Shown one piece after another: positions 21,338-33,089 of a stretch of 64,000 nt of DNA (its first letter is position 1; the number at the start of each line of letters is the position of its first letter). The position numbers were made by a program, and so were the translations under genes. The notes beneath the pieces were generated by a model. That model saw only the letters and a list, made by a program, of their open reading frames with translations, had not been told where the DNA came from and made no database searches. The stretch is from Solobacterium moorei (GTDB lineage Bacteria > Bacillota_I > Bacilli_A > Erysipelotrichales > Erysipelotrichaceae): assembly GCF_036323475.1 (NCBI RefSeq), contig NZ_AP028934.1:558001-622000 (forward strand), read 5' to 3'.

Positions 21338-21596
21338 TCAATTACGGATAAAAGTTGATCCAATGAAGTTGGATGGACGAGAGTATAAAGTATATTTTCC
21401 AAAAGGTTCTAGATATGAAGGCTATTATGTAATTTTGAATCTTTCAAAAGCGAAAGTAGATAAGGCTGAATTAAATAGTCTAATCATCGAAGATAAAAAA
21501 TATAGTAAATACACCATTACGAATGGTATAGAACAACAAATCATTTCTTTTGATGAGTTGATTTATGTCATGTGTTTAGAGATTTTATCAGACTAG
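21321..21596 (+). CDS. Small hypothetical protein
   Basis: 91 aa, ATG within the end of the previous gene (AGATGGGAGATTTGG upstream). Strand-helix pattern with YKVYFPKGSRYEGYYVILNL. No family recognised. The overlap suggests a functional pair with 20804-21337. Confidence 0.55.
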   Translation: MQEGVNQLRIKVDPMKLDGREYKVYFPKGSRYEGYYVILNLSKAKVDKAELNSLIIEDKKYSKYTITNGIEQQIISFDELIYVMCLEILSD

Positions 21597-21619
21597 TTAT
21601 AAGTGATTTTAAAAGATTT

Positions 21620-21634
21620 GGGGCAATTTGCCCC
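21620..21634. repeat. GGGGCAATTTGCCCC palindrome, copy 13
   Basis: Central T, followed by AGGAAAGG; 18 bp before ATG 21653. Confidence 0.9.
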
Positions 21635-21652
21635 AGGAAAGGACAGTAATAG

Positions 21653-21790
21653 ATGGAGAAAAAACAAGAGATAGAGATGACAGAGGACGACTTCAAAGAA
21701 TTATTGAAAACGATTAATGAAGAAGATGAAGAATCATCTCTACTAGAAGAAAATCCTGATGAGGAGATTTTGTTCTATGTCAGAAAATAA
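21653..21790 (+). CDS. Very small acidic protein
   Basis: 45 aa, ATG 21653 after AGGAAAGGACAGTAATAG. Highly acidic (EEDEESSLLEENPDEEI). It overlaps the ArdC-like gene's start by 14 bp. Acidic small proteins coupled to ArdC-type genes could be DNA-mimic helpers, but this is speculation from charge. Confidence 0.5.
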   Translation: MEKKQEIEMTEDDFKELLKTINEEDEESSLLEENPDEEILFYVRK

Positions 21791-23060
21791 AAAGTTTGTT
21801 ACGAAGACAAGAGAGCAGCTTGCGGAGTTCTATCTAAAATCATTAGAAGAAAACGTCATACCTTGGGAAAAGACGTGGCAAGGTTCACGACCAGAAAATC
21901 CTATTTCAAAAACAAGGTATAGAGGAATTAATTACTTGCTGTTGGATTACATTGCGACTAAAAGAGGGTATGAAGATACTAGATGGGCTACATTCAATCA
22001 GATTGCTGATAAGGATAATAAATATCATCCTAATCAAAAATGGCACTTGAAAAAGGATTCTAAAGGAGTGCCAGTAGAAATAGCCAAGATGATCAACCGT
22101 GAAACAAAACAAACGATTGATTTTGTGGAATATGCAAGGATTGTTGCCGATGATCCAAGTGAAGCACAGAACTATGCATTAATGATGCGTACCTACACAG
22201 TATTTAATTACTCATGTATAGAAGGCGTGCCAGAGCGTACAAAGCGAAGAGAACACACAGTATCTATGCCAGCTTTACAAGAGTTTTGTGATGAAGCTTT
22301 AAAAACAATGGGTGTTGAATTGAACCATTATGGGGATAGAGCATTCTATAGTGTGAAAGATGACAAGATTGTATTACCTACAAAGGATTCATTTGAAACT
22401 ATTGCGGATTATTATGCGACACGATTGCATGAAACGGCACACTCTACTGGAGCAGAAAAACGCTTGAATAGGGATTTGAGTGGAAGATTTGGAAGTGCTG
22501 AATATGCTGAAGAAGAACTGAGAGCAGAGATTGCATCATCTATTCTTTTTGCGGATCTACATATGCCAACGGAAGCTAAACTATTAGATAATCACAAAGC
22601 GTATATTCAGTCTTGGGTTGAGATATTAAAAAACGATCCAAAGATTCTTTTCCAAGCAATCAAAGATGCGGAAAAGATTAGTGATTATATCCAAGAGCAG
22701 GCACCAATCGCAAGAGAGAAGATACGTCAAGAAAAGTTACAAGAGGAAAATCAACAAGATCATTCCAAATACATCCAGGAGAAAATCAAGGATGATTTTT
22801 TAAATGAGAGAATATCTGAGATGGAATATAGATGTCTAGATGAACATCAGGACTGGATTAATGATAAGTTCGATGCGTATAAGAAGGGTGATTCTGAAGA
22901 AGAAAAGAGTGCTACATATGAAACCTTACGAGATGCAATCCTAATCAATGCTGGCTTTAGATTAATACATGAAAACCAGGAAGTATTGTCAAGCGATGCA
23001 AGCATTATGAATGAGGGCATCGTAGGCATGGGCTTTGAGGACGAAGGAATAAGTTTTTAA
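21777..23060 (+). CDS. ArdC-like antirestriction/metallopeptidase protein
   Basis: 427 aa from ATG 21777 (GAGGAG upstream, 10-bp gap). The N-terminal ssDNA-binding-type domain of ArdC is clear: REQLAEFYLKSLEENVIPWEKTW, then NPISKTRYRGINYLLL and RWATFNQIADKD. Residues ~205-300 form a zincin-like peptidase domain with LHETAHSTGAEKRLNR (HExxH) and EELRAEIASSILF as third-ligand helix. ArdC proteins protect incoming plasmid DNA. The C-terminal ~100 residues are acidic and helical and end EDEGISF. Close to ssb and the transfer genes, as expected for early entry functions. Confidence 0.85.
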   Translation: MSENKKFVTKTREQLAEFYLKSLEENVIPWEKTWQGSRPENPISKTRYRGINYLLLDYIATKRGYEDTRWATFNQIADKDNKYHPNQKWHLKKDSKGVPVEIAKMINRETKQTIDFVEYARIVADDPSEAQNYALMMRTYTVFNYSCIEGVPERTKRREHTVSMPALQEFCDEALKTMGVELNHYGDRAFYSVKDDKIVLPTKDSFETIADYYATRLHETAHSTGAEKRLNRDLSGRFGSAEYAEEELRAEIASSILFADLHMPTEAKLLDNHKAYIQSWVEILKNDPKILFQAIKDAEKISDYIQEQAPIAREKIRQEKLQEENQQDHSKYIQEKIKDDFLNERISEMEYRCLDEHQDWINDKFDAYKKGDSEEEKSATYETLRDAILINAGFRLIHENQEVLSSDASIMNEGIVGMGFEDEGISF

Positions 23061-24981: not shown

Positions 24982-25319
24982 TATTCAATAGCCCAGCACC
25001 TTTTAAAAGTGGAAAATTGGTTTTAGGAAAATATAGGAAGTTGGATCTAATGATACTTGCGGCAGGTATTATTAGTACTTTCTTTTTCATGTATGTTTAT
25101 TTATCTGCACTGGAAGGAAGAAGTGCGGTTGTAATCGTGCTATTGGCACTTCCTGCAGGTATTGGTTATATGCTGATTCAGCCCTATGGAATCTATCACA
25201 ACTGGCTAGAGTATCTACATGTACTCTTTTTATTTAGCCGTACAAGAAAAGTATGGGTAAGTGCTGGTGAATATCAAAATGCTGGTGGAAGTTCAATAGA
25301 TGAGGAAGTTAAGCTATGA
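24978..25319 (+). CDS. PrgI-family conjugation membrane protein
   Basis: 113 aa, ATG overlapping the previous stop. Two close membrane segments (residues ~25-43 and 50-67) after a short basic leader, with YRKLDLMILAAGIISTFFFMY then LLALPAGIGYMLIQPYG. This is the short VirB3-like form (PrgI) that always precedes VirB4 in these loci. It overlaps VirB4 by 4 bp, so VirB6-PrgI-VirB4 are coupled. Confidence 0.85.
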   Translation: MIFNSPAPFKSGKLVLGKYRKLDLMILAAGIISTFFFMYVYLSALEGRSAVVIVLLALPAGIGYMLIQPYGIYHNWLEYLHVLFLFSRTRKVWVSAGEYQNAGGSSIDEEVKL

Positions 25320-27895
25320 ATAAAATAAGAAAACTAACTAGCCTAGAAAAGAAACAAAAAGATAGGCTAATAAAAGCGAAGAAGGACACAAAAACTTTGC
25401 GGAAAAAAGTAAATACTACAATGGATTGGATGAATATCCGTGAAGTTGGAGAAGACTATATCATGCTGAAGGATGGTAATAAAGAAGCATGGATTAGAGG
25501 CATTAAAGTCAATCCGCACGACATTTTTTTAGATGATTATGAGGAACAAGTTAGACATGTCGATGGACTGAGAATTTGTTTGAATAAGTTACGCTTTAAG
25601 ATGTACTACAGTTTTGTATTAACAAAAGTTGATGTCCAGTCATATATTGATCAGATTATTGAAGGACAGAGAATGGAAGATGACCGTATTATCCAGACAA
25701 TGATGGATGGAGATATCGACAAATTAGACAGCTTCTGTGATGCATATAAAGAATTAAATTTCTTTATCATGATCCGCTCTAGCGATCCAAAAGAGTTAGA
25801 TAAAAATTATTGGGAATTGTTTAATGAGTTTTCTGTTGCAGGCTTTCAACCAAAGAAGTTGAATGAATTTGATTTTTATAACTACATTGCGTATGTATTT
25901 GAAAATACTCCAGTGCCAGATTACTACTATTCCAGAGGAATATTCTCATATGAAAATGTCGAAATGAAATATAATGCTACGGAAGATCAATATGAGCTGG
26001 TAGATAATACCAAACCATTATTAGATGCAAGGGATGCACCTATTGAAAATCTCATTCCTGAGATTGGTACTATCAGACAATCGAGAATGGCACCATTTTG
26101 TTTCTCATTAAAGCCAGATCATTACATGATTGGAGAAAAATATGTATCCAATATCTTGATAAAGCGATTGCCACAAGGATACAGTCTTGGTATTCTTTGT
26201 GATTATGTAAATAATCCAAATATCAAGTTATTTATGACAACGGATACTGCAGATGAAAGTATTGCTAAAGGGTTAAAAATGGAGTACCAGGAAAAGGAAA
26301 GAAAGTATTACCAGACCAGGGATCCACAAGTCAGACAACATCTGCAAAATGACCTGGCATCTTTGAATGAGTATATTCAGGAAATCCTACGTGATACGGA
26401 TAGAACACATAATGTCATTATGGTGTTATCTGTATATGCTGATGATTTACAGAGTCTAAGAGGAATGGTAAAGGATATAAAACTACGGATGCGTAGCATA
26501 GGTTTCATGCTTGCAGATGCAAGATATTTAGAAGAAGCTGTTCTACGTATATCCTGTCCTTTATTCTTTAAAGCAAAATCTCCGTTTATCGTTGAGCAGA
26601 ACTTTGGTTTCTTGCTACCGTCTAGAGGTGTTGCAGGACTATGGCCATACGTTTTTGAAACACTGAAAGACCCAAAGGGGATGCTGCTAGGATGTGAGCT
26701 ACAGAATAAGGGAATCATCATGTTTGATCCATTCTTCTATAACACGCATAAGAGTGAGGCTCGTTTAACACAACGCATCAATGGCAATATGATTGTTGTT
26801 GGTAAATCCGGTTCAGGTAAGAGTACGACAATGGGACTACTTATCAGAGACCTCATAAAGAGAAAAGTCCGTATCGTATGGATTGATCCAGAAAATAAGA
26901 ATAGAAATCTTACCAAGAAATATGGTGGAACGTATGTTGCTTGGGGACAAAAAGGAAATATCATCAATATCTTTGATCTAAAGAAGATTACTTCAGAGGA
27001 AGAGGGCGGAGATGAGAAGATGTATGATACTGAAATTGCTATCTACAATGTCATTGAAGATATTAACCAGGTACTACAATTCTTATATCCAAATATTTCT
27101 GAAGATACTTTAACTTTCACTGGTGATATTACGTTTAGAGCATATGCGAAAGTTGGCATTACAAGAGATGCGAACGGGCAATTTGCAAGTTTTAAGGGAC
27201 TACGTTATGAAGATATGCCTACATTCGAGACATTTAATGAATGCCTGGAAGAGAGAATCAAAGAATTAAAGGAAGATACTGCAGCTAGAGTTGAATTGGA
27301 TCGCTTGATGGATCTAAGAATGAAGATGCAGCGTATTATGGTTGAATGGAGTGTTTACTTTGTTGGTCATACAACAGTTACATTTACAAATCCAGAAAGA
27401 CAGATCATTGCCTTTGGAACAAAAGCATTATTCAACGCATCTTCTAATCTGAGTGCAGCTTTGAATCACATTATGTTCAAGTTCTCCTGGGATCAATGTT
27501 TGGATAACAATGACCAGTCAGCTTTTATCATTGACGAGGCACACACGATGATTCTGCAAGGTTCTACAGCACCATTGATTGCTCAATTCTACAGACGTGC
27601 TAGAAAGTATAACTGCATGATGATTGTCGGTACACAAGAACCACGAGACTTCGCAGATGACAGTATCATCACGCACGGTAAAGCAATTTTTAATAACTCT
27701 ACATATAAGATCGTCATGTACCTGGATAAAGATGCATGTAATGACGTATTGAAATTATGCAACTTCAATAGTAATGAAATTACTTATCTGCAGGATTTCC
27801 AATTAGGGCAAGCAATCTTTATTTGCGGCAATAGAAGAATACCGATTCAAATCATCGCTACTGATCAAGAATTAAAGGAAATAGGAGTTGAGTAA
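25316..27895 (+). CDS. virB4: VirB4-type conjugation ATPase
   Basis: 859 aa, full length for the family. The N-terminal ~440 residues form the membrane-associated VirB4 domain. Walker A (VVGKSGSGKSTT) lies near residue 495, Walker B (AFIIDEAHTMI) near 735, and the VGTQEPRDF motif near 775. VirB4 powers assembly of the mating channel. It sits in the coupled run 23464-27895 and is followed within 6 bp by the lytic protein gene. Confidence 0.95.
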   Translation: MNKIRKLTSLEKKQKDRLIKAKKDTKTLRKKVNTTMDWMNIREVGEDYIMLKDGNKEAWIRGIKVNPHDIFLDDYEEQVRHVDGLRICLNKLRFKMYYSFVLTKVDVQSYIDQIIEGQRMEDDRIIQTMMDGDIDKLDSFCDAYKELNFFIMIRSSDPKELDKNYWELFNEFSVAGFQPKKLNEFDFYNYIAYVFENTPVPDYYYSRGIFSYENVEMKYNATEDQYELVDNTKPLLDARDAPIENLIPEIGTIRQSRMAPFCFSLKPDHYMIGEKYVSNILIKRLPQGYSLGILCDYVNNPNIKLFMTTDTADESIAKGLKMEYQEKERKYYQTRDPQVRQHLQNDLASLNEYIQEILRDTDRTHNVIMVLSVYADDLQSLRGMVKDIKLRMRSIGFMLADARYLEEAVLRISCPLFFKAKSPFIVEQNFGFLLPSRGVAGLWPYVFETLKDPKGMLLGCELQNKGIIMFDPFFYNTHKSEARLTQRINGNMIVVGKSGSGKSTTMGLLIRDLIKRKVRIVWIDPENKNRNLTKKYGGTYVAWGQKGNIINIFDLKKITSEEEGGDEKMYDTEIAIYNVIEDINQVLQFLYPNISEDTLTFTGDITFRAYAKVGITRDANGQFASFKGLRYEDMPTFETFNECLEERIKELKEDTAARVELDRLMDLRMKMQRIMVEWSVYFVGHTTVTFTNPERQIIAFGTKALFNASSNLSAALNHIMFKFSWDQCLDNNDQSAFIIDEAHTMILQGSTAPLIAQFYRRARKYNCMMIVGTQEPRDFADDSIITHGKAIFNNSTYKIVMYLDKDACNDVLKLCNFNSNEITYLQDFQLGQAIFICGNRRIPIQIIATDQELKEIGVE

Positions 27896-27900
27896 CCACA

Positions 27901-28851
27901 ATGAAGATATCCTTTGAGAAGCTGTTTAAATGGGTTTGTACGGGCTTTCTTATTATGATGATAGGAATGGTACCTATTATGGCAATTGGCACCGTTCTGC
28001 AGCCTGTAGTGACTGCTACGAATGCAATCGTATCCTTCTTCAAAGGTCTCAATGGAAATGCAAATATGGAAGGCATAGAAGAAAGTGTTAAAGCCTGGAT
28101 AAATAGTCCGGAATACCAAGGTATATCTAAGTATAAGCCTTCCGATTATCGCTCATATTATCTTGCACAATCTATCTCATTTTATTATTTCAAGACAACA
28201 GGTGAATATATCGTAAGTGATGGTGATTATGCAGCGTATATGCAAATCTTCAAAGATGCAGATTCACAAGAGTGCTTGAAAAAGGTTGAATCAAGATATG
28301 GTTTCAAAATGAGTGAAGACGAATCAACAAATGTAAAATCACTGGCAGTTGCGTTGATACCTGGAGGACAAAGAGGAATCAACGATCCAGTAGGCGAACC
28401 GGTTGAAAGGGCGATTGCATGGATGACACAAATAGCCAATGATGATAGTCATGGTTATTCTCAGGTAACTAGAAATGGCAATCCAAACTATGACTGCTCT
28501 TCATTGATCTGTTCAGCAATGAGATATGCTGGTGGATTTAATGTACCAATTACTTCCACACACTCAATGCGATTGGTATTTACCAATGCGGGAAATTGGA
28601 TATGGATTCCTAGATCCGAGTTAGGAGACATTTCTAATGAAGCTGTCATAAGCGGACGTTCCAATCTAAAAAGGGGAGATATTCTTTTAAATGAAACAGA
28701 ACATACAGAAATCTACCTTGGAAATGGACTTAATCTAGGAGCGCATTGGGACTGGGATGGAGTTGATGGTGATTCATCAGGAAAGGAAATCTGTAGTGGA
28801 TTGTATTGGGATTCAAATTGGGACGGCGTTTTACGTTATATAGGAAATTAG
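27901..28851 (+). CDS. NlpC/P60-type cell-wall hydrolase of the transfer system
   Basis: 316 aa, ATG after AGGAGTTGAGTAACCACA. One N-terminal membrane segment (residues ~12-35) anchors it outside the membrane. The C-terminal ~150 residues carry the peptidase: YDCSSLICSAMRYAGG (catalytic Cys), then RGDILLNETEHTEIYLGNG (catalytic His) and a later polar residue. VirB1-like wall hydrolases of this class open peptidoglycan for the mating channel. The lysozyme-like first domain seen in some homologues is not obvious here. Confidence 0.85.
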   Translation: MKISFEKLFKWVCTGFLIMMIGMVPIMAIGTVLQPVVTATNAIVSFFKGLNGNANMEGIEESVKAWINSPEYQGISKYKPSDYRSYYLAQSISFYYFKTTGEYIVSDGDYAAYMQIFKDADSQECLKKVESRYGFKMSEDESTNVKSLAVALIPGGQRGINDPVGEPVERAIAWMTQIANDDSHGYSQVTRNGNPNYDCSSLICSAMRYAGGFNVPITSTHSMRLVFTNAGNWIWIPRSELGDISNEAVISGRSNLKRGDILLNETEHTEIYLGNGLNLGAHWDWDGVDGDSSGKEICSGLYWDSNWDGVLRYIGN

Positions 28852-28856
28852 TTTTT

Positions 28857-28871
28857 GGGGCAATTTGCCCC
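28857..28871. repeat. GGGGCAATTTGCCCC palindrome, copy 16
   Basis: Perfect copy, 5 bp after the stop of 27901-28851. The next gene is 520 bp away. Confidence 0.9.
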
Positions 28872-28906
28872 AAAGATTACCTGGTAGTAGATTCATATGG
28901 ATACGC

Positions 28907-28948
28907 AGCAGCACACTCAACCATTCAGGTCTTGTGTGCTGCTTTTAA
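28907..28948 (+). terminator. Stem-loop terminator after the transfer run
   Basis: Perfect 10-bp stem AGCAGCACAC/GTGTGCTGCT, 17-nt loop, then TTTAAAA. The weak T-run makes it a partial terminator. Confidence 0.6.
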
Positions 28949-28949
28949 A

Positions 28950-29390
28950 ATGCTTTAACTGCATGGATGCCTTCGCAGAATGCAATCTGCTCAGGCTTCC
29001 TTTTTTAAAAGCAATCTGTTTTGCAAACAGACTGCTAAATTAATTCTGATTTATCTTTCAACCCTTGGCACTCCGACCTTATCGCATAGACGAGATACAA
29101 AACAAGGATACGAGTTTCTAACGAAACTCTATCAAGCAGCTTTGCTGTCCTTTGTTTTTTATCTCTTGACGTTACACATTTACGAGCCTGATTTCATGGA
29201 TTGACCCTTGTCATTTTTTTCATCCTATGACAGTAAACTGTCAAGGACTTCGCAAGCTCAAAAAATGCAAGGGCTATGCAAGTCAATCACATTTCATTGG
29301 CTTGGCTCTTCAATGTTTCACTTGTCTATGCTCTTGCGTAGTCGTGCCAAGGGTGGCACTAGAAAGACTACCGAAAGGTAGATGAGGAAT
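28950..29390 (+). ncRNA. Candidate large structured non-coding RNA
   Basis: About 440 bp without a convincing gene but with many strong stems on the plus strand. These are AGCA..CTGTTT/AAACAG..TGCT (29010-29036), a three-way junction closed by AAAACAAGGA with TCCTTTGTTTT (about 29097-29158) that encloses GAGTTTC/GAAACTC and GCAGC/GCTGT, TGACAGT/ACTGTCA (29228-29243), GTGCCA/TGGCAC (29344-29359), and CTACC-GAAA-GGTAG with a GNRA tetraloop (29368-29381). It ends just before a gene. Size and density resemble the large ornate RNAs of mobile elements, but no known family was matched. Confidence 0.5.
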
Positions 29391-29395
29391 TCCAC

Positions 29396-29818
29396 ATGAA
29401 ACACTACTACAGATTTATTATCAACTACGATGAAGATGAAACACGTATCTTCATCAGTCCAAAGGAACTAAAGAAAGGTGCTGTTGCTGTTGTCCATTCT
29501 TATGGTGAGCAATTTGCGATTGCTACTGTCTTAGAACCAGTCAGTGAACTAGAGGCACTTACCGGTTATCAACGCAAATGTCTTGAAGATATCATTTGCA
29601 CAGTTGATGTTACAGAATATCTCACAAAGCAAAAAGCAATCTCTGAACGTTCTAAACTTGAAGAGTTGATGGACGAAAAGATGGCAGAGTTGAAGTATGA
29701 AGACCAACTCAAAAAGACTGCTGATAGAAGTGCAGACTTCAAAGTTCTGTATGAAGCATATCTCAAAACATTATCGCCTGTTACAGATGATGTACAGGAA
29801 ACTTTAGATGGTGAATAG
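29396..29818 (+). CDS. Hypothetical protein after the structured region
   Basis: 140 aa, ATG 29396 with GATGAGGAATTCCAC upstream. The N-terminal ~60 residues are strand-rich (YYRFIINYDEDETRIFISPKELKKGAVAVVHS), followed by a long charged helix (KAISERSKLEELMDEKMAELKYEDQLKK) that may form a coiled coil. The front part resembles a small SH3-like fold. No family recognised. Confidence 0.6.
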   Translation: MKHYYRFIINYDEDETRIFISPKELKKGAVAVVHSYGEQFAIATVLEPVSELEALTGYQRKCLEDIICTVDVTEYLTKQKAISERSKLEELMDEKMAELKYEDQLKKTADRSADFKVLYEAYLKTLSPVTDDVQETLDGE

Positions 29819-29876: not shown

Positions 29877-30059
29877 ATGGATTACTTGGTTATGAAAGCA
29901 CTCTTTCAACTAATGATTGATAAGAGCCATCGTGAATTTATCAAAGCGATAATTTCAATTGAAACGGATGTAGAAGATGAAGACAGATTAAACAGGTTAT
30001 ATGACTTCTACATGGAAGATGATGATATGTCGTTATTAAATTATGCTTTAGTGGAGTAA
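29877..30059 (+). CDS. Small hypothetical protein
   Basis: 60 aa, ATG after AAAAGGAGAACAT, a strong ribosome site. Helical and acidic (VEDEDRLNRLYDFYMEDDD). No family recognised. Its stop is 7 bp before a palindrome copy. Confidence 0.6.
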   Translation: MDYLVMKALFQLMIDKSHREFIKAIISIETDVEDEDRLNRLYDFYMEDDDMSLLNYALVE

Positions 30060-30066
30060 TGGCTTT

Positions 30067-30081
30067 GGGGCAAATTGCCCC
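30067..30081. repeat. GGGGCAAATTGCCCC palindrome, copy 17
   Basis: Last and right-most perfect copy; beyond it lie the oriT-like field and mobilisation genes, which have none. Confidence 0.9.
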
Positions 30082-30083
30082 AA

Positions 30084-30143
30084 AGACTGCCGGCTCCACC
30101 CAGCCAAGATAATTTCCTTGGCTGACGTTACGCACGGCAGTAA
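30084..30143 (+). other. Branched stem upstream of the oriT-like region
   Basis: ACTGCCG/CGGCAGT outer stem enclosing AGCCAAG/CTTGGCT, followed at 30165-30198 by TTACCAA/TTGGTAA and a T-run. It reads as a terminator region closing the upstream transcript. Confidence 0.55.
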
Positions 30144-30269
30144 AAACGTAGCAACACTTCACAAAAAAATTACCAAAAATAATCTTGGTAATAGTTTTTT
30201 GTTCGTGTTTATATTGGTTCACCACTTCGTATCTCATATAAATGGATACTCGTGGTTTTCAATCTATGA

Positions 30270-30490
30270 TTCCAGCCAAAATCGCAAAAAACGCTCTATT
30301 TGTCTGGAAAGCAAGATAAGGAATTTCGTATTACGAAATTCGGTGTTACGCAATTGCTCAACGAGCAATTCGTTTATTTTAAAGGTTTTTTCGTATTACA
30401 AATCGTAATACGACGTAAACGCTTTTTTGATTTTCGTAATACGTTCGTAAACGCTTTTTTCGTAGTTATTTTTTCGTAAAAATAATTTGA
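30270..30490. other. Candidate origin of transfer (oriT)
   Basis: Gene-free DNA directly upstream of the mobilisation genes with stacked palindromes: TTCCAG/CTGGAA (30270-30309), a perfect 21-bp palindrome with arms GAATTTCGTA (30321-30341), AATTGCTC/GAGCAATT (30352-30370) and CGTATTAC/GTAATACG (30392-30412). Two direct copies of CGTAAACGCTTTTTT (30414-30428, 30446-30460) follow. Such arrays upstream of relaxase operons are typical of oriT. The nick site is not identified. Confidence 0.6.
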
Positions 30491-31056: not shown

Positions 31057-31312
31057 GCAAAAATTACTAAGCGAAATTATGAAAAGAGAACAAAAGATTG
31101 CACAACTATCTAAAAAAATTAATGAGTATCGTTCTCAAAAGAATGGAGTACAAAGTGAACTTAATGAATTGAATCGTATTAGAAAAAAGATTGAAGATAT
31201 TGAAGCTGAAGCAATCAAAAAACAAAATACTTTGGAAGAGGATTTGAAAAAAATATTAGATAGACCTACCAAGCAAAAGCAAGAGAAAGTAGCTGAGACA
31301 GATGCCGGTTGA
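31049..31312 (+). CDS. Small coiled-coil mobilisation protein
   Basis: 87 aa from ATG 31049 (GAAGAGGAAAACGAAA upstream). Almost entirely heptad-like coiled coil (EQKIAQLSKKINEYRSQKNGVQSELNELNRI). It overlaps both neighbours (8 bp and 11 bp), so it is part of one coupled mobilisation operon. Possibly a second accessory protein or a scaffold for the relaxase. Confidence 0.6.
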   Translation: MNKQKLLSEIMKREQKIAQLSKKINEYRSQKNGVQSELNELNRIRKKIEDIEAEAIKKQNTLEEDLKKILDRPTKQKQEKVAETDAG

Positions 31313-33089
31313 AATAGATAAAGTTAGATTCTTTCAATTAGGAAGTCAGGCTCCAAAGAACTCTAGGTTCAAAGGAATCATCACACAAGATACATTATTT
31401 GGAAAAGGTGGATGGTTAGAATATACACAACGTGATGAGGCAACGCAGCCAGATAAAGAGTATTATGCTGAGCGTGATGATGGATTCTTTGGGTACACTT
31501 TCAGACAAGAAGCGGCAGATGGATTGACTATGACTTCAATGGGAGATTTTTCTATAGATAATATTTCTACATTTGCTGAAGCATGTAAATCATCATTTAA
31601 AAAGAATGGGGATATTGTTTGGGACATGGTAATTTCTTTACCATCATATGACTATGCAGAGAAGTGTGGATTACATAGTCAAAAAGATTATGCAACCATG
31701 ATTTCTAAAATCATGCCAGAGTTTTTCAGGAAGATTGGATTAAGACCAAGCAATATGTTATGGTGGGAAAACTATCATAAGAATACAGAACATCCACATA
31801 TGCATGTGTGCTATCTTGAAAAAAATAAGACAAGGGATAGAGGTAAACTTACTCTTTCAGAATTAAAAAAATTAAAAGCAATTATCATAAAAGAAATTGG
31901 ATTAAGAGAAGAGTTGTTTAAAAATACTGCTATTGATCCAGAACGTTTTTTTAAAAATAAAGATGCAGAAACTAGAGAACTTATACGTGCAACTCGCAAT
32001 TATGATTTTACAAAGATCAAGAATGTTCTAGACCTGGCTACAGTGTTACCTAGATACGGACGTATGCAGTATGGCTCATATCAGATCATGCCATATAGAG
32101 AGAAGCTGGATGAGATTGCAGAGGAGTTTCTAAACTCAGATGCACTCAAGGAGATGTATAAAAGTTTCTTAGAAAAACTAGATACTCTTTCACAAACAAT
32201 GGATACGGCTGCAGGTACGGACATAGCAACTATTAAAGATACAGAAATCAAAAAACTACATAAACAAATTGGAAACATTATTTTGGATCAGATTAAAGAC
32301 ATGCGAGCTGCCAATTATAAGAGTTCAAGATTAGACAAGCCATTTGTAGAAAGACAATTTGAAAAGGCAGAAGTACCTTTACTAGAAAAAAACAGTAATA
32401 ATCCAGAATGGAAAGAGTACCTGGAAGTGAAGAGACAATTAGAAAATGGTAATTCAAAAGGTGAAAAGGTGAATCATTCCTTTCTGCATGGATGCATAGA
32501 AACACTTGAAGGATTGGTAAATAAAATTACAGATTCTAAATTAAATGCTTTGGTTTCACATAGATTAGCAAAAATGTATTTCTATGGTGAAGGCGGAATC
32601 ACTGATCCACTAAAGACAGTTAAATATGCAAAGCAAGCCATCAAGAATGGATACACAAAAGATTATATTCTTCTGGCGAAGGCACAGTTCAAGCTGGATA
32701 GGGCATCTGAAGGAATGGATACATTGTACGTTGGAATGACACATGGAGATCCACTGGCTACATACTCATATGGAATTCATGAAGTAAAAGGGGACATGTG
32801 TAACAAGAACAAGATAGATGGATTTAGATGTATCAAAGTGGCTGCAGAGATGGGTTGTCTTCCTGCTATCAACTACTTGAAGACACATGATAAGGCTGGA
32901 TTTAAAGAGACCGTGGAGAAGAATCTTGGAGTAAAGATTAAGAAGCCTGTTATCTCTTCAGGAAAGCAGATGAGTGAAGCTGCTAAGTATATGTATAACT
33001 CTTCTCAACTTAGCGTAGCGACAGGGCTAATCAATCGAGAGATTGAAGCGTATCTGAATAATGATAAAGAATTAGAAACGGAGTGGTAA
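31302..33089 (+). CDS. MOBP-type relaxase with Sel1-like repeats
   Basis: 595 aa. The three-His metal motif HPHMHVCY lies near residues 164-171, within ENYHKNTEHPHMHVCYLEK, as in MOBP relaxases. A tyrosine-containing segment (SLPSYDYAEKCG) is ~40 residues upstream. Residues ~405-540 show Sel1/TPR-like repeats (HRLAKMYFYGEGG, then LLAKAQFKLDRASEGMDTLYVG, then CIKVAAEMGCLPAINYL), which fits the MobP3 group of Firmicute elements. It nicks oriT and pilots the strand. The coupling-protein gene starts 4 bp after it. Confidence 0.85.
   Translation: MPVEIDKVRFFQLGSQAPKNSRFKGIITQDTLFGKGGWLEYTQRDEATQPDKEYYAERDDGFFGYTFRQEAADGLTMTSMGDFSIDNISTFAEACKSSFKKNGDIVWDMVISLPSYDYAEKCGLHSQKDYATMISKIMPEFFRKIGLRPSNMLWWENYHKNTEHPHMHVCYLEKNKTRDRGKLTLSELKKLKAIIIKEIGLREELFKNTAIDPERFFKNKDAETRELIRATRNYDFTKIKNVLDLATVLPRYGRMQYGSYQIMPYREKLDEIAEEFLNSDALKEMYKSFLEKLDTLSQTMDTAAGTDIATIKDTEIKKLHKQIGNIILDQIKDMRAANYKSSRLDKPFVERQFEKAEVPLLEKNSNNPEWKEYLEVKRQLENGNSKGEKVNHSFLHGCIETLEGLVNKITDSKLNALVSHRLAKMYFYGEGGITDPLKTVKYAKQAIKNGYTKDYILLAKAQFKLDRASEGMDTLYVGMTHGDPLATYSYGIHEVKGDMCNKNKIDGFRCIKVAAEMGCLPAINYLKTHDKAGFKETVEKNLGVKIKKPVISSGKQMSEAAKYMYNSSQLSVATGLINREIEAYLNNDKELETEW

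Follow-up and report, generated by a model that had tools for sequence, protein, structure and literature searches.

A Conserved, Covarying Structured Element without a Consensus Promoter in the Putative Leading Region of an Integrative Conjugative Element of Solobacterium moorei

Introduction

This study concerns the way in which Gram-positive conjugative elements activate their earliest genes after entering a recipient. The window analyzed here, a 64,000-nt stretch of Solobacterium moorei DNA (positions 558001–622000 of a 2.6-Mb contig), is a compact example: its core covaries, a candidate nic motif can be placed, and the predicted fold of the leading protein is suggestive. A preliminary description, made from the sequence alone, had pointed to about 440 bp without a good gene between a lytic transfer protein and a small gene, had listed a three-way junction, several perfect stems, and a GNRA tetraloop there, and had suggested that it could belong to the large mobile-element RNAs or form a new class, to be checked by a covariance search of Rfam and by an alignment of homologous loci for compensatory changes. 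The question raised by this locus is what the stretch is, on which strand it folds, and whether it acts as RNA or as DNA. Our analysis reveals a structured element about 500 bp long that is conserved and covaries, carries no consensus promoter, and occupies a fixed place in what would be the leading region of a conjugative element. All positions below are those of the window unless another sequence is named.

Gene Neighborhood and Extent of the Element

An integrative conjugative element (ICE) is formed by the genes between roughly 18 and 36 kb. They include those for an ArdC-like protein (21759–23060), a VirB4-type ATPase (25316–27895), and an NlpC/P60 transfer hydrolase (27901–28851, plus strand), the last being the final gene of the upstream transfer operon. 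The structured element (28900–29395) follows and leads directly into a 140-aa gene (MKHYYRF.., 29396–29818, plus strand) and a 60-aa ORF (29877–30059, plus strand), the second gene of the leading operon. Beyond these lie an inverted-repeat-rich stretch, a 174-aa gene, a MobL/MobP3-like relaxase gene (31302–33089, plus strand), and the gene for a VirD4-type coupling protein. The relaxase matched Pfam MobL with an E value of 6e-19 and NCBIfam MobP3 with an E value of 1.8e-35, the latter under that model's cut-off.

The lytic transfer protein and the small gene of the preliminary description correspond to the NlpC/P60 and 140-aa genes, and the region between them (28852–29395) indeed holds no plausible gene, the overlapping ORFs being only short and frame-shifted. 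A coding reading of the element was rejected because these ORFs change frame among its copies; they have no credible relative beyond the genome's own copies. The element extends a little beyond the stretch first claimed, starting at about 28900 and ending at the Shine-Dalgarno region of the 140-aa gene. On the basis of fold z scores, homologous copies, and covariation, we treat the whole as a putative leading-region control element, with the minus strand as the favored folded strand.

Predicted Fold of the Element

RNA folding of 28852–29395 gave −188.8 kcal/mol (z −8.7) for the plus strand and −203.3 kcal/mol (z −12.6) for the minus strand, with 0 of 100 shuffles as good in either case. DNA folding of 28900–29395 gave a z score of about −9.8 on both strands, and in a fold scan of the whole 64 kb the 250-nt windows of the element took ranks 3 and 4 among 255. 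The stretch, which the preliminary description judged too regular for a spacer, folds much better than expected by chance (z about −9 to −12 over both strands), and its structure is conserved.

The left end is formed by a hairpin with a perfect 10-bp stem, AGCAGCACAC..GTGTGCTGCT, followed by TTT (28907–28943), which is terminator-like on the plus strand and marks a sharp left edge of homology common to L001, L002rc, L003, and L008. A second predicted hairpin, GGATGCC..GCAGA..TCTGC..AGGCTTCC (28965–29000), is conserved in the related copy L003, and a third, AGCAATCTGTTTTGCAAACAGACTGCT (29010–29036), is a 12-nt inverted repeat of 92%. A long-range closing stem of 10 bp then spans about 290 nt, its 5′ arm CCCTTGGCAC (29062–29071) pairing with its 3′ arm GTGCCAAGGG (29344–29353); in L003, this stem shows a compensatory change from C-G to T-A. 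An inner stem, GCATAGAC/GTCTATGC (29084–29091 with 29324–29331), appears in both RNA and DNA folds and is (nearly) invariant in L003. The three-way junction, arranged as P1-TAC-P2-TATCAAG-P3-P1′, occupies 29097–29160, and the hairpin CTACC-GAAA-GGTAG (29368–29381), which is retained in L003 with a changed loop, stands directly 5′ of the Shine-Dalgarno sequence. The anatomy given in the preliminary description could be recovered in full: the junction, the GNRA tetraloop in this last hairpin, and the perfect stems, namely CCCTTGGCAC/GTGCCAAGGG, GCATAGAC/GTCTATGC, AGCAGCACAC/GTGTGCTGCT, and a further one, GAGTTTC/GAAACTC, are all present.

Copies of the Element and Covariation of the Junction

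Three further copies, 77% identical, are present in the same genome, and all of them immediately precede a copy of the 140-aa gene. The window holds one full copy; every other full copy belongs to a separate element at another site of the genome. The gene order around those in L049 and L051 matches that of the window (where read out). The copy in L002 is almost identical to those in L003 and L004, even though the 140-aa proteins of L002 and the window share only about half of their residues, and the element therefore appears to pass between conjugative elements by recombination.

Near-identical copies across otherwise diverged elements, the sharp left edge in four contexts, and a 59-nt stray copy of the left hairpin in L005 would all suit a small non-autonomous mobile or recombination cassette, rich in inverted repeats by chance. 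We consider such a cassette most improbable, as full-length copies always share one place and one orientation ahead of the same gene, and as compensatory changes are present. The stray copy (L005 1501–1559, at 333788 of the same genome; 81%) lies away from the transfer genes and is perhaps reused as a terminator. In a related genome, G190 (JALENJ010000013.1; L008/L017), the first 154 nt of the element are kept and run directly into the final 29 codons of the 140-aa gene, with the 60-aa gene preserved beside this remnant; the junction apparently reflects a microhomology deletion.

Among 272 genomes of the family, 16 encode relatives of the 140-aa protein. A covariance model that was built on the three-way junction in two copies matched L003 and also L016, L018, and L029 (E values of 1e-5 to 1e-7), which represent three more conjugative elements from two other genera and carry the junction upstream of the leading operon in each case. 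In the five-sequence junction alignment, which is fitted to the model and hence biased in its favor, 97% of the cells were paired; the compensatory changes can, however, also be seen directly in the raw sequences. Both sides had changed in 12 of the 21 pairs and one side only in none, so that the alignment of homologues proposed in the preliminary description gave a strong result. None of 500 shuffles was as good, and slid controls were only 38–55% paired. The consensus of the junction is P1-TAC-P2-TATCARG-P3-P1′.

A refined covariance model and an exact pattern yielded no further credible members of the junction in 395 and 294 genomes, respectively. Additional matches from the covariance search of the 395 class genomes and from viral-contig patterns were rejected as coding-region false positives or chance. 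Most other elements with the 140-aa gene family carry a different strongly folded stretch at the corresponding place before the operon, and in several of these elements the folded stretch precedes an SSB-like gene. Position and strong folding are therefore conserved more widely than any one fold.

Position Relative to the Putative Transfer Origin

On the minus strand, the interval that separates the leading operon from the relaxase operon carries 5′-CCTTATCYTG adjoining an inverted repeat. The corresponding candidate nic motif of the window, 5′-CCTTATCTTG^CTTTCC, lies beside this repeat at 30312–30321, and the same motif or a close variant occupies the same place in L049, L051, and L053. MOB_P-type nic sites carry a motif of this kind next to an inverted repeat. 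From this rule and the strand of the motif, we infer that the minus strand is transferred and enters leftwards from an oriT at about 30311; it is also the template of the leading genes. The order of entry would be the 60-aa gene, the 140-aa gene, and then the element, which, judging from the MobL relaxase and the nic motif, probably lies in the leading region. In related elements without a nearby nic motif, oriT was not located.

The stretch between the 60-aa gene and the nic motif (30060–30250) folds even more strongly (z −6.7) and has GACGTTACRCA in common with the element; it is probably part of oriT.

Promoter and Database Searches

An in silico search for sigma-A-like promoters gave none on either strand of the window element or of L003, with fewer matches than in shuffles. 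The other elements did not exceed shuffles, barring two marginal minus-strand matches. This absence weighs against a textbook Frpo and agrees with EGeRS1 (see below). The Frpo/ssi single-stranded promoters of F, ColIb-P9, and other plasmids (PMC11541004) resemble the present locus in lying in the leading region on a foldable single strand, and in serving genes that are transcribed towards oriT with the transferred strand as the template, an arrangement to which the nic motif and the relaxase point here. In contrast to them, the element has no −35/−10 sequences and no plasmid sequence match, and it is larger and more branched. A leading-region survey in 2024 described a Streptococcus pneumoniae island without any sequence significantly similar to Frpo (PMC11541004).

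The Rfam search proposed earlier returned no family match: gathering thresholds and more permissive ones alike yielded nothing beyond tRNAs and chance matches (E up to 5). Blastn and tblastn searches against plasmids and phages gave no match.

Comparison with EGeRS1

Plasmids of the pLS20 family and related Bacillus plasmids carry the establishment gene regulatory sequence type 1 (EGeRS1), which was published without a mechanism (Val-Calvo et al. 2021, PMC8708921). It is an inverted-repeat-rich sequence of 400–750 bp directly 5′ of the RBS of an establishment operon, consists of a branch of about 325 nt and an upstream branch, has no promoter in either orientation, and blocks read-through in its native orientation only (PMC8708921). 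The pLS20 copies are 62–95% similar among themselves, with several per element, one before each establishment operon (PMC8708921).

The element of the window shares with EGeRS1 an inverted-repeat-rich stretch of 400–600 bp that lies immediately 5′ of the RBS of genes with a presumed role on entry, a branch of about 300 nt closed by a long stem together with an upstream stem-loop branch, a raised GC content (41.2% vs. 35.7% here), the lack of a consensus promoter (here in silico), and a MobL relaxase. Strict Watson-Crick pairs and a bias toward folding of the template strand are also common to both, as judged from the pLS20-type copies analyzed here. However, blastn against plasmids revealed no sequence kinship, and the junction covariance model had no credible match in pLS20; moreover, the ICE carries one copy per element rather than several, with other genes downstream. 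A further difference concerns transfer: the position and orientation of the pLS20 nick sequence were confirmed, and the transferred strand is the coding strand of the EGeRS1 operons, whereas the transferred strand here would be the template. On this anatomical comparison, in which the likeness is close, we file the element as one that may work like EGeRS1 but is not a member of it.

In the EGeRS1 copies of pLS20 and its relatives (L065, L142–L149), the template strand folded much better than the sense strand, with a DNA difference of −16 to −21 kcal/mol and z scores of −3.5 to −8.4. This bias is stronger than in the ICE elements, and we did not see it in the describing paper (PMC8708921).

Strand Asymmetry and the Nature of the Folded Molecule

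A selected sense RNA is expected to show a clear excess of G.U pairs. The helices of the three-way junction contained 0 G.T in 101 cells, and the 22 non-redundant EGeRS1 copies contained 6 G.T and 10 A.C in about 1400 cells, in helices defined without wobble pairs. Neither strand showed an excess when G.U was compared with A.C at helix positions, and the mismatch counts gave no G.T excess on either strand. Only folding energy, loops, and purine asymmetry therefore support the minus strand. With DNA parameters, this strand folded better in 17 of 17 elements, and the minus-plus difference measured against shuffles had a mean z of −1.21 (14 of 17 negative, t −3.6), compared with a mean of 0.0 in 40 control windows. 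GNA/GNNA hairpin loops in the ICE set numbered 12 on the minus strand vs. 2 on the plus strand; unpaired bases were purine-rich on the minus strand and pyrimidine-rich on the plus strand. These tests, in which the elements are partly non-independent, independent sequences are few, and compositional effects may grow with the extent of structure, lean toward the template strand and toward DNA.

The main rival is a sense-strand RNA leader, a 5′ UTR of about 500 nt whose fold would terminate or pause read-through and keep the leading genes from being translated until an antiterminator or a transfer-specific signal acts, which is also the RNA reading of EGeRS1. The element directly abuts the Shine-Dalgarno sequence, its left hairpin is terminator-like, the plus-strand UAAC/UGAC and GAAA loops suit RNA tetraloops, and the read-through block of EGeRS1 in the native orientation only (PMC8708921) fits such a leader. 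In class C elements, furthermore, the 3′ arm of the closing stem is able to re-pair with a downstream site before the RBS (p 0.002 for L133). However, this re-pairing is weak across all elements (Fisher 0.018, class-C-driven), and the idea that the closing stem and a hairpin further downstream form a conserved switch was rejected, such a switch being clear in class C only. The lack of a G.U excess over A.C, the pyrimidine-rich unpaired plus-strand bases, and the better folding of the minus strand also speak against a leader RNA. Near-strict Watson-Crick pairing together with the template-strand asymmetry therefore does not favor a sense RNA; we regard the leader as possible but on balance doubtful, and folded DNA is a likelier working form of the element than an independent RNA.

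A stand-alone structured RNA gene on either strand, the ornate large RNA of the preliminary description, is very unlikely in our view. The size and the ornate fold, with a minus-strand RNA z score of −12.6, recall the large ornate RNAs of Rfam (GOLLD, ROOL, and HEARO), which also occur in mobile DNA, but no Rfam match was obtained at gathering thresholds, a consensus promoter is absent on both strands, and each full copy is fused to a gene. The element is thus, as far as visible, no independent transcription unit. The idea of a large mobile-element or stand-alone RNA was not supported for a stretch that is fused 5′ of an RBS, has no delimiting promoter, keeps Watson-Crick pairs, and leans toward the template strand.

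The 140-aa Leading Protein

PriA starts primosome assembly at forks and at single-strand sites. The AlphaFold model of the 140-aa protein (pLDDT 85, from a 13-sequence alignment) predicts a small beta barrel followed by long helices, and its seven best structural matches were all to PriA helicase, in the N-terminal 3′-DNA-binding domain (3′BD). The best VIA-align match superposed residues 2–72 of the model on PriA 1–69 (Z 9.6, 2.4 Å rmsd over 67 residues), with the next unrelated match at Z 5.1; the Foldseek E value was only 0.06. Sequence profiles of the protein gave no Pfam or PDB match supporting this likeness. Given the role of PriA in primosome assembly, the predicted resemblance to its 3′BD is therefore a lead, not proof, and hints at a role in single-strand initiation.

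This resemblance, the position in the leading region, and the strict Watson-Crick covariation, as expected if structure outweighs sequence, would also suit a single-strand origin (sso), for which structure is known to matter over sequence (PMC4595007). The sso1 of ICEBs1 likewise lies downstream of oriT and has several stem-loops on the transferred strand, but it is only about 200 nt long and is sequence-related to plasmid sso types (PMC4595007), whereas the element adjoins a gene and has no match to a known sso type in the blastn search against plasmids. Its end, moreover, always coincides with the RBS of the gene, which would be unnecessary for an sso, and we think it improbable that the element is one.

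Proposed Role on Entry into the Recipient

We tentatively favor the reading, to which we would give somewhat less than an even chance, that the element is a single-strand control or priming element that is silent in the donor and serves the leading operon on entry. The strand that folds in vivo, the insulation in the donor, and what loads on the element would, as we infer, be as follows. In the donor, where the DNA is double-stranded, the promoterless element would shield the 140-aa and 60-aa genes from read-through of the transfer operon. On transfer, the minus strand would enter 5′ end first from oriT at about 30311, bringing in the element within the first 1.5 kb. This strand, the template of the leading operon, would then fold as a single strand and offer a site at which RNA polymerase or the priming machinery could load, and the leading genes, and probably the complementary strand, would be made at once in the recipient. 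The absence of a sigma-A-like promoter from the window element and L003 counts against this favored single-strand reading, as a promoter of the Frpo type would need one.

A broader proposal is that the element represents a novel class of single-stranded-DNA control or priming elements of Gram-positive conjugative elements, in which a large folded transferred strand, unrelated to Frpo or known sso, acts with a leading protein resembling the PriA 3′BD (often with SSB) to start transcription or complementary-strand synthesis; we hold this to be rather unlikely. Since the transferred strand of pLS20 is the coding strand, one common single-strand mechanism does not fit both EGeRS1 and the element. 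The pLS20 authors had put aside a single-stranded promoter partly because the transferred strand is the non-template strand (PMC8708921). Here, the transferred strand would be the template, and the single-strand hypothesis set aside for pLS20 therefore becomes directly testable.

Minor Features of the Locus

The 420-bp gap before the ArdC-like gene (21338–21758) lies outside the strongly folded windows, unlike the region that precedes ardC in pLS20. In other elements of the genome, a class B sortase-like gene (L049 7142–8011) sits between the NlpC/P60 gene and the element. In the window, a palindromic 28-nt hairpin at 28854–28881, to the left of the element, recurs with 89% identity at 30064–30091, to the right of the leading operon, so that the pair flanks the element and its operon, each copy standing directly after a stop codon.
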